Below are positions 50,617 to 52,517 of a stretch of DNA of 64,000 nucleotides, in pieces. The notes beneath the pieces were generated by a model. That model searched no databases and was not told the DNA's origin. It was given only the letters and a program-made list of their open reading frames with translations. The position numbers and the translations under genes are program-made. Source of the DNA: Pseudarthrobacter naphthalenicus. GTDB lineage: Bacteria > Actinomycetota > Actinomycetes > Actinomycetales > Micrococcaceae. Positions within the stretch are counted from its first letter, which is position 1, and every line of letters starts with the position of its first letter. The DNA is taken from contig NZ_JARESG010000001.1 of NCBI RefSeq assembly GCF_029076445.1, positions 62,001 through 126,000 of the forward strand. The letters are read 5' to 3'.

Positions 50617-51588
50617 CTAGGGGGTGGTTACCGGCCCGTACTGGACGTCCATGTCCCAACGCGTGAAACCCAAGCCGCGGTAGAGCGAGACGGCCGGCGC
50701 ATTGTCCGCGTCCGTGTACAACATAACGGCGTGCAGTCCCAGGCCCTGAAGGTACCTGATTCCGGCGACGGTGAGCGCCTTGCCCAGACCCAGGCCCTGC
50801 GCGGCCGGGGTCACGCCCACCGCGTACACTTCACCGATCGCCGGGTGTGCGCCGTGCCGCGGGTGGACCTTAGTCCAATGGAAGCCCAGCAGCTGGCCGT
50901 CCCCGTCCACGGCGAGCAGGAAGCCGGCGGGATCAAACCAGTCCTCTGCCATCCGGGCCTCCAGGTCCCCGCGGGTCAACGAACCCTGTTCAGGGTGATG
51001 GGCAAACGCCGCGCGGTTCGCCGCCAGCCAGCCCTCCTCATCCTGGCCGGGCACGAAGGCGCGGAGCGTGACGCCGTCCGGAAGGCCGACGTCGGGCAGT
51101 TCGGCGGTGGCAGTGGTCAGCCTCATCTTCCAAAGCTCCCGCACGGGCCCGTAGCCGTACCGGGCGGCGAGGTCCGCCGCCGCCTCATGGTTGCCGTGCG
51201 ACCACGCCTTCAGGCCAGTCAGGCCCCGCTCGGACTTCAGCGCGCCCACCAGCCGGTCCGCCACCCCTTTGTTGCGGTAGCTGGGGTGGACGGCAATCTC
51301 CAGGACGCCGCTGCCGTCGGCTTCCTCCACCACCACGGCGAACCCGGCCAAGTCCTGGCCGGAGGAAGGGTCCGAGTCCTCATCCGGGGCGTAGAGGGCG
51401 AGGGTCAGCAGGGAATGCTCGGCCGAATCCGCGGCGCGGAGCGTCATCACGGTCTGCTCCGAAAGTGACGGGTTGCCGTCGGATTCCTCGGCGGCTGTAA
51501 GGAGCCCCAGGCAATCATTCAGCAATTGCTTGTCCACGGGGCCGTGGACAACAAGGACGGGCCATTTCTCCGGGTGCGCAGGACTCAT
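50617..51588 (-). CDS. mshD: Mycothiol synthase
   Basis: Acetylates Cys-GlcN-Ins with acetyl-CoA, the last step of mycothiol, the actinobacterial glutathione substitute. 323 aa with two GNAT domains: [21 protein letters not shown] (N-terminal, inactive in the mycobacterial enzyme) and [23 protein letters not shown] (C-terminal, active). Next to glnR as in mycobacteria (Rv0818/Rv0819). TAGCCT (51595-51600) lies 6 nt before the ATG: leaderless. Confidence 0.93.
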
Positions 51589-51627: not shown

Positions 51628-51656
51628 TTGATGGCGCCCCGGCCGTTACGTATAAT
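51628..51656 (+). promoter_or_regulatory. Strong promoter of a small RNA
   Basis: TTGATG (51628-51633), 17-bp spacer, perfect TATAAT (51651-51656). It faces away from mshD and toward no protein gene on this strand; the transcript would start near 51663 and stop at the terminator 51760-51795. Confidence 0.85.
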
Positions 51657-51662
51657 CGTTAC

Positions 51663-51795
51663 CTCACCCGTCGGGAGACCGGCGGATGCGAGGGGGATCC
51701 ACCAGTGGGGTGGCCTCGATACGTTCGACCCGTATGTCCTCCACAAGCAGGCAAAAACTAAAGCCCCGGACCACCTGATGTGGTCCGGGGCTTTT
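51663..51795 (+). ncRNA. Candidate structured small RNA (about 133 nt)
   Basis: Bounded by a consensus promoter and an intrinsic terminator, with no open frame of note. It folds into three local hairpins before the terminator: 51668-51674/51679-51685 with GAGA (GNRA) tetraloop; 51689-51693/51714-51718 enclosing 51699-51703/51709-51713; and 51719-51723/51731-51735 with loop TTCGACC. The third, followed by seven bases and an unpaired A, looks like a tRNA T-arm, but no D-arm or good anticodon arm exists. I know no family with this layout. Target or role unknown; it lies between mshD and glnR, both on the other strand. Confidence 0.72.
51760..51795. terminator. Bidirectional terminator of small RNA and glnR
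   Basis: Perfect 15-bp stem (51760-51774, 51780-51794), 5-nt loop, TTTT on the plus side and, read on the minus strand, TTTAGTTTTTG. Ends the small RNA and the glnR message. Confidence 0.93.
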
Positions 51796-51818: not shown

Positions 51819-52517
51819 TCAGGCTTCCGTCAGTTCGTCCTCTTGCTGGCGTACCAGGGTGAGTCGGTACCCCACGTTCCGGACAGTGCTGATCAGGTTT
51901 TCGTGGTCGGCGCCGAGTTTGGCGCGGAGGCGGCGGACATGGACGTCGACGGTGCGGGTGCCGCCGTAATAGTCGTAGCCCCACACCTCCGTGAGCAGTT
52001 GCTGGCGGGTGAACACCCGGCCGGGGTGCTGGGCCAGGTATTTGAGGAGTTCGAACTCCTTGAAGGTCAGGTTCAGCGGCGCACCGTTCACGCGGGCCGT
52101 GTAGCTGGCCTCGTCGATAACCACGCCTGCTGCCCGGATCTCCGTGGGGGCATCGGCCTGTTCCGGGACAGCCCGTGCCACGGAAAGCCTGATGCGCGCC
52201 TCCACCTCGGCCGGCCCGGCGGAGTCGAGCACAATATCGTCCACCGCCCAGGCCGACGAAACGGCAGCCATGCCGCCTTCGGTCAGGATCAGTACCAGCG
52301 GGGCGCTCAGTCCGGTGGCTTTGAGCAACTGGGTGAGCGAACGGGCACCCACCAGGTCCTTGCGGGCATCGAGCAGCACGATGTCGCAGGGGTCGGTTTC
52401 CAGCAGGGCGGTCGGCTCAGCGGCGAGGATATGCACGCGGTGATTCAGTAATTCGAGGGCAGGCAGAATGTCCACCGATGACCCGGTGCTGTTCGTCAAT
52501 AGCAGGATGTGCGACAT
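51819..52517 (-). CDS. glnR: GlnR-type OmpR-family regulator of nitrogen metabolism
   Basis: Orphan response regulator, 232 aa. The atypical receiver (1-115) starts [23 protein letters not shown] and keeps D50 and R52 in LLDARKDL, which in known GlnR proteins hold the dimer together without phosphorylation; TEGGMAAV and [14 protein letters not shown] are GlnR hallmarks. The C-terminal winged helix (about 135-225) has [31 protein letters not shown]. It activates ammonium assimilation genes (glnA, amtB) in relatives. GGAGGAACA precedes ATG 52517, ruling out the longer frame. Confidence 0.92.

Follow-up and report, generated by a model that had tools for sequence, protein, structure and literature searches.

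A conserved anticodon-less tRNA-like RNA in Actinobacteria, a candidate alanine carrier outside translation

Introduction

What is encoded between mshD and glnR in Pseudarthrobacter naphthalenicus? The region lies within a stretch of 64,000 nucleotides (contig NZ_JARESG010000001.1, positions 62,001 to 126,000), hereafter the window. A preliminary description had proposed a structured small RNA there, running from promoter to terminator, made of three compact hairpins, lacking an open frame and a known family, and possibly involved in nitrogen or thiol control. We find that the element is real and conserved, and we ask what its conserved part resembles, where it occurs, which genes accompany it, and what it may do.

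The locus and its transcription signals

The RNA is flanked by two genes of the minus strand: mshD, encoding mycothiol synthase (50617..51588; NCBIfam TIGR03448), in divergent orientation, and a gene for a glnR-type OmpR-family regulator (51819..52517; Pfam GlnR_1st PF21695), in convergent orientation. The proposed promoter, TTGATG-17 bp-TATAAT, was recovered by a consensus scan at 51628..51656 of the plus strand with 10 of 12 consensus matches. Since the scan found one such site in 5 kb and 0.6 would be expected from shuffles, the match is weak taken alone. TATAGT/TATAAT-type boxes recur among the genus copies of the RNA, and a promoter with at least 8 of 12 matches accompanies 68 of 135 copies in the family Micrococcaceae, against 1 of 135 in mononucleotide shuffles. 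Among 28 rows outside the family (four of the 28 being viral contigs) the count is 5, against 2 in shuffles, and promoters are not evident there. Conservation of the promoter in relatives, whose absence had been named as a ground for refutation, is seen in about half of the copies within the family and is not evident beyond it.

The 5' leader (51663..51691, plus strand) contains the hairpin previously reported to carry a GNRA tetraloop, here a GAGA loop at about 51668-51685; in relatives the leader varies in sequence and length. The 15-bp terminator is also where it had been placed, with 15 pairs at 51760..51794. In the consensus scan it appears for the minus strand alone, the side of glnR; read on the plus strand, the hairpin ends in TTTT and satisfies a looser rule, so that either strand may use it. 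Terminators are present in 105 of 135 family copies (8 of 135 in shuffles) and in 9 of the 28 rows outside the family (1 in shuffles; the same four viral contigs included). The absence of an open frame does not hold literally, for a mechanical ORF list contains frames of 47 aa from 51618 and 147 aa from 51526 that cross the element; the leader length differs between relatives. The RNA has no match to an Rfam family, as had been supposed: at gathering level the whole window yields three ordinary tRNAs only, all away from the RNA, and at E<=10 none of the fifteen matches on the element attains its own family's gathering score. An Arthrobacter transcriptome study mentions four small RNAs, on regions named plas1 to plas3 (PMC6696678).

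A predicted tRNA mimic without an anticodon arm

Alignment of the copies delimits a unit of 52 nt on the plus strand (51692..51743), from G1 to a discriminator A73 in tRNA numbering. The 5' strand of its acceptor stem, GGGGGAU (G1-U7, 51692..51698), shows no variation across the 28 distinct copies of alignment A2. It is followed by a D-like hairpin, CCACC-AGUGG-GGUGG (51699..51713), with double changes among relatives, by a 5-nt joint, CCUCG (51714..51718), in place of the anticodon arm and variable loop of a tRNA, and by a T-arm, AUACG-UUCGACC-CGUAU (51719..51735), with double changes in three of its five stem pairs. The 3' strand of the acceptor stem, GUCCUCC (51736..51742), places U70 (51740) opposite G3 (51694), and A73 and C74 follow at 51743..51744, the window copy encoding CAA. 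The core is therefore predicted to be a tRNA mimic that has a 7-bp acceptor stem, a D-like hairpin, a 5-bp T-stem with a TTCRA loop and a discriminator A, with CCA encoded in some copies, and that lacks the anticodon arm. The unit measures 51-53 nt across the 160 distinct copies listed. ARAGORN calls no tRNA at the element, and RF00005 gives no match at gathering level or at E<=10.

This structure is evident from comparison and not from energy. The 133-nt segment folds better than all 200 of its shuffles (z -4.1), much of this signal being the terminator; taken by itself, the 55-nt core has no stability beyond that of its shuffles (z -0.08; 87 of 200 equally stable), and yet 46 of the 52 core positions are invariant in a 24-row genus alignment. 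In the minimum-energy fold of the core, another 4-bp hairpin displaces the T-stem. The three compact hairpins of the preliminary description can all be drawn, the T-arm one outside the minimum-energy fold, and what falls away is their independence: two of them, closed by the 7-bp stem, make up a single tRNA-like three-way junction, and the first belongs to the variable leader. An extra helix, CGAGG/CCUCG, was considered and dropped; the joint is altered in 2 of 24 genus copies with no matching change.

Conservation and covariation

A blastn search of 59 relatives, the genome of the window included, gave matches in 26, of which 24 are copies of the RNA; the matches in the other two genomes (G009 and G011) cover the terminator end only. 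The conserved run extends from G1 through A73 and C74, and the base after C74 is variable, as are the sequence and length of leader and terminator. RNAalifold, given 28 distinct copies, returned the identical acceptor/D/T fold unaided. In alignment A2, all 476 of 476 cells are paired and four pairs are doubly changed; when other lineages are added (alignment A3, 40 distinct rows, itself fitted to the structure), 99.4% of 680 cells are paired and 6 of 17 pairs are doubly changed, values that no slid version reaches. The search for compensatory changes in relatives, which had been proposed, thus found them. A3 scores 0.190 for covariation, where shuffles score 0.073 and slid versions no higher than 0.065, while the count of further pair types shows no excess (150 of 500 shuffles reach it). 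The seven acceptor pairs are uninformative on covariation because they never vary. In Pseudonocardia, the T-stem reads UCAGG/CCUGA or UCAGG/CCUGU and the acceptor is unchanged.

The T-arm-like TTCGACC loop noted at the outset stands: UUCRAYY, which corresponds to the tRNA T-loop rule, occurs in 158 of the 160 distinct copies listed. The two exceptional copies, both from family f19, combine a UGCGAWU T-loop with an unusual D-loop.

Distribution of the RNA

How widespread is this RNA? Allowing as many as 3 mismatches, a T-arm pattern finds it in 96 of 295 Micrococcaceae genomes and in 11 of 32 genera, and a reversed control pattern was found in 0 rows of the same family genome scan. Covariance model R1 matched 16 of 347 genomes of the order, all within the family, under the stricter filters that apply when a whole-genome covariance-model search spans more than 40 genomes, as the search of the class described below also did. 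A contig scan of 84,980 species returned at least 117 stretches. Among the matches listed beyond Micrococcaceae are at least 21 copies in Pseudonocardia, Gordonia, Williamsia, a Rhodococcus MAG and a Kitasatospora-labelled contig; three further copies outside the family are L227 (family f54) and L228 and L229 (family f19). Within the family, the place between mshD and glnR is the usual one: both genes flank the RNA in 176 of 223 rows listed, a count in which genomes are repeated and all taxa included.

Several individual loci deserve mention. In Arthrobacter sp. Br18 (L171), and also in L169 and L177, the RNA and pieces of glnR are apparently duplicated in tandem, with several partial glnR matches; the two RNA copies of L171 are spaced 746 bases apart. 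Gordonia desulfuricans (L157) has two copies, separated by 3.7 kb and unlike in their loops and tails, and an LPG synthase gene lies between them. Copies in contigs labelled Vibrio cholerae, Sporosarcina and Acidobacteria (L115, L188, L164) have Micrococcaceae-like neighbours, and the copy in the Kitasatospora-labelled contig (L129) has Williamsia-like neighbours; all four probably reflect contamination or mislabelling. Four viral contigs carry short tRNA-like stretches (L217:2329-2386, L218:3972-4025, L219:2499-2552 and L220:1035-1092) with a GGGGGAU start, a T-loop, a ATCCTCCA end and scant space for an anticodon arm, the unit being identical in L218 and L219. These stretches are candidates for phage mini-tRNAs or tRNA remnants.

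Alanine identity and the 3' end

The acceptor carries A73, G2-C71, G3.U70 and G4-C69. The bacterial acceptor-stem set for alanine consists of these same elements, and the core determinant G20 is listed as well (PMC9976931). Because the acceptor features match the listed acceptor-stem set, G20 lying outside the comparison, the RNA is a candidate substrate of alanyl-tRNA synthetase (AlaRS). The invariance of the acceptor is partly imposed by the search pattern, and positions 70 and 74 are the freer ones. U70 is found in 160 of 160 distinct copies listed under a pattern that fixed G3 and permitted C70, and C74, which was not part of the pattern, likewise in 160 of 160. The full CCA is encoded in 72 of the 160 copies listed (55 of 136 in the family and 17 of 24 elsewhere). 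Duplicates, recognised by identical 30-nt flanks, and the four viral contigs had been removed from the 160 beforehand; the 136 family rows include Arthrobacter cryoconiti and mislabelled contigs.

Partner genes outside the family

Which genes accompany the RNA when it leaves the mshD-glnR context? Neither of the two lies within 3 kb in 24 listed copies outside the family. Instead, 21 of these 24 copies have a partner gene within 3 kb, encoding a short AlaRS, an LPG synthase and/or an esterase: short AlaRS at 13, LPG synthase at 14 and esterase at 12, with L226 counted for L143. Within the named-lineage subset listed (Pseudonocardia, Gordonia, Williamsia, Rhodococcus and the Kitasatospora-labelled contig), 18 of 21 copies have a partner within 3 kb, and L142, L183 and L205 have none in view. 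In L227, L228 and L229 the short AlaRS gene is 112-131 nt from the RNA. The orientation of the RNA varies: it is found downstream of LPG synthase, upstream of the esterase and divergent from AlaRS. Pfam searches of ten partner proteins assigned tRNA-synt_2c to residues 6-462 in both short AlaRS tested, LPG_synthase_C to four proteins and Esterase to four. Within Micrococcaceae, Arthrobacter cryoconiti (L211) has the RNA, a hairpin with a T-run, and the genes for an LPG synthase of 838 aa and an esterase of 429 aa on the same strand, in that order; Rfam places a SAM-IV riboswitch upstream of this RNA (L211:2147-2266, minus strand). Nothing was found in support of a role in nitrogen or thiol control, and since the neighbours change outside the family, we dropped this part of the preliminary description.

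The short alanyl-tRNA synthetase

The short AlaRS is a catalytic-only protein of about 465 aa. It was detected in 6 of 374 genomes of the class, and the RNA in 4 of these 6. Outside the family, the RNA occurs among the 374 genomes only where the short AlaRS does, save for one weak 29-bit match in G917, a genome without the enzyme, which was taken as chance. Three of the six genomes (G455, G516 and G846) had been in the query alignment A4, and the G846 copy in model R2; among the independent enzyme genomes G905, G376 and G925, the RNA is present in one of three. In G376 and G925, no RNA was found by genome search or, with filters off, within about 7.5 kb of the enzyme gene. The short AlaRS gene of G925 adjoins that of an LPG synthase with no recognisable RNA (L240:7864-11468); perhaps a more divergent RNA, or ordinary tRNA-Ala, is used there. 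A plasmid search with the short AlaRS returned 70 records, all below 60% identity, and the best 20 of the 70, where annotated, are ordinary alanine--tRNA ligases.

Identity to the Rhodococcus enzyme is 57-77% for four short AlaRS, and the three compared with the AlaRS of the window's genome are 32-34% identical to it. Aligned to E. coli AlaRS, the short enzymes keep motif 2 in 13 of 13 and the alanine-binding residues N217 in 11 of 13 and D235 in 13 of 13. At the positions that read G3.U70, Asn is found in 9 of 11 and Asp in 10 of 12 readable sequences; the reading covers 13 of 17 loci, with sequences picked by the motif 2 or D235 region. The Rhodococcus and Gordonia hirsuta enzymes (L141, L226) have A/S and E there. 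An Asn and an Asp of AlaRS read G3.U70 (PMC12945691, PMC10036535), and the Tupanvirus mini-AlaRS, which lacks both residues, still requires G3:U70 and charges acceptor-stem RNA (PMC10036535).

Enzymes within Micrococcaceae

Does the family have the same enzymes? No short AlaRS was found in 149 family genomes with the query that was positive in the class search. In the genome of the window this query detects a single AlaRS, whose frame spans 922 aa, and nothing of the short type. The same genome encodes two LPG-synthase proteins, and the gene for one of these immediately follows that of an esterase of the linked-cluster kind; with this pair and the second synthase elsewhere, it holds parts for lipid alanylation that are unlinked to the RNA. 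The RNA is likewise unlinked to partner enzymes at the family loci examined, A. cryoconiti excepted. Among 295 family genomes, 77 have both the RNA and an LPG synthase, 19 the RNA only, 91 the LPG synthase only and 108 neither, an association with a Fisher p of 1.2e-8 that ignores kinship and has long LysX-like frames mixed in. Given the 19 RNA-only and 91 LPG-only genomes, the link is loose in the family. The RNA-positive genomes with no detected LPG synthase amount to 19 of 96 overall and 13 of 21 in one genus; the former, together with the 2 of 6 short-AlaRS genomes that lack the RNA, disfavours a strict link between RNA and enzymes.

Function of the RNA

What might such an RNA do? Its conservation, the compensatory pairs, the alanine identity nucleotides, the C74 and CCA end, and the linkage to AlaRS, LPG synthase and esterase together point to an RNA devoted to carrying alanine for the modification of lipids. 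We therefore lean, with somewhat better than even confidence, to the reading that this 52-nt anticodon-less RNA is charged with alanine by AlaRS and passes it, by way of an aminoacyltransferase of the MprF/LPG-synthase type, to membrane lipids and not to the ribosome. Transcription would run from promoter to terminator; by tRNA rules, RNase P would cut before G1 and remove the leader, and the 3' end would be trimmed or receive CCA. By the identity rules, alanylation would proceed through G3.U70, by the short AlaRS where present and otherwise by the sole AlaRS found in the window's genome. As the gene linkage suggests, LPG synthase may then transfer the alanine to phosphatidylglycerol or diacylglycerol, and the esterase may remove it from the lipid. 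Lacking an anticodon, the RNA should be unable to decode. Corynebacterium is known to have an alanyl-diacylglycerol synthase (PMC10580965). On a broader scale, we put at only just above even the chance that Actinobacteria possess an aminoacylation line outside translation, in which a half-tRNA without anticodon, an AlaRS of about 465 residues charging by G3.U70 alone, and a membrane transferase and esterase would add and remove lipid alanine, the Micrococcaceae RNA being charged by the housekeeping AlaRS with no private synthetase.

The main rival is a role in the cell wall: in Micrococcaceae, the same alanylated mini-tRNA would feed Fem/MurM-type transferases that build alanine-containing peptidoglycan cross-bridges. 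Arthrobacter has Lys-Ala cross-bridges, and all 30 RNA-positive genomes tested have FemAB-family matches, including 16 with no detected LPG synthase. However, such matches also occur in 14 of 16 RNA-negative genomes tested, so that FemAB was rejected as a discriminating partner, and it is LPG synthase that accompanies the RNA by linkage in other lineages and in A. cryoconiti; we regard this role as unlikely. The charged RNA might instead alanylate a small molecule, by analogy with ascamycin biosynthesis, where the truncated AlaRS-like protein AcmF transfers alanine from Ala-tRNA-Ala and the alpha/beta hydrolase AcmE removes it (PMC12945691). A truncated AlaRS and a hydrolase thus recur in both settings. 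AcmF, however, is a transferase that has lost its ATP-site residues (PMC12945691), whereas motif 2 is intact in the short AlaRS read, which also retain the N that binds alanine in 11 of 13 cases and the corresponding D in all 13, and the third linked partner here is LPG synthase; such a product would seem improbable.

An uncharged tRNA mimic that binds and regulates AlaRS, as a decoy or in the manner of the thrS operator, itself a known tRNA mimic (PMC9976931), would account for an RNA near short AlaRS genes. Its orientation to the partners varies, however, both neighbours in the window are on the opposite strand, and the listed copies, all 160 with C74 and 72 with CCA, suggest a genuine acceptor end, so we give a regulator just as low a probability as a small-molecule pathway. 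Could the RNA be a message-free relative of tmRNA that enters stalled ribosomes with SmpB? The tRNA-like domain of tmRNA shares with it the acceptor stem, G3.U70, A73, CCA and the lack of an anticodon arm, and is charged by AlaRS via G3.U70 (PMC3968760). Unlike tmRNA, the RNA is a stand-alone unit of 51-53 nt (52 nt in the window) with a D-like hairpin and without message or tag frame, long H2 helix, pseudoknots or an Rfam tmRNA match, and it is linked to lipid-type enzymes; we think this kinship very improbable. Just as little credence goes to control of nitrogen or mycothiol by an ordinary small RNA that acts through base pairing. The promoter, the terminator and the mshD and glnR neighbours would agree with it; the conserved portion, however, is paired and tRNA-like, and the 24 listed copies outside the family stand apart from both genes.

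Relation to known systems and significance

That AlaRS charges minihelices through G3.U70 was established in classic work in vitro, and much of the thinking on an origin of tRNA as an acceptor half is built on it. How does the lipid-alanylation reading relate to natural systems? With tRNA-Ala the RNA shares the acceptor-stem identity set, the T-loop rule and, in most copies, GG in the D-like loop, but it has no anticodon arm with which to decode and escapes tRNA searches. Bacterial Y RNAs, which go with an Rsr/Ro partner, also contain a tRNA-like module; Rfam gives no match at the RNA to any family. With MprF, the AlaDAG synthase and LysX the proposed pathway shares an LPG_synthase_C transferase and a hydrolase-type neighbour. 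These systems are described with ordinary tRNA, whereas the proposed pathway would have its own mini-RNA together with a distinct short AlaRS; a dedicated paralogous synthetase is known for the LysX pathway (PMC2922099, PMC10580965). The Tupanvirus mini-AlaRS and a 461-residue fragment of E. coli AlaRS resemble the short AlaRS in length and in having the catalytic and tRNA-recognition domains only, but here a natural bacterial enzyme is paired with a natural mini-RNA by gene linkage. We recognised no description of an anticodon-less bacterial alanine tRNA in the literature searched, a search that left subscription papers mostly outside and does not establish absence from print; the available part of a review of non-canonical tRNAs likewise has none (PMC7609411).

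If the lipid-alanylation reading is true, evolution has put G3.U70 to practical use, with a minimal synthetase and an RNA made of acceptor and T-arm. The cell would possess a dedicated amino-acid carrier to which the ribosome is blind, so that protein synthesis and the modification of membranes would compete less, and the RNA would open a new way to study the alanylated lipids of Actinobacteria.
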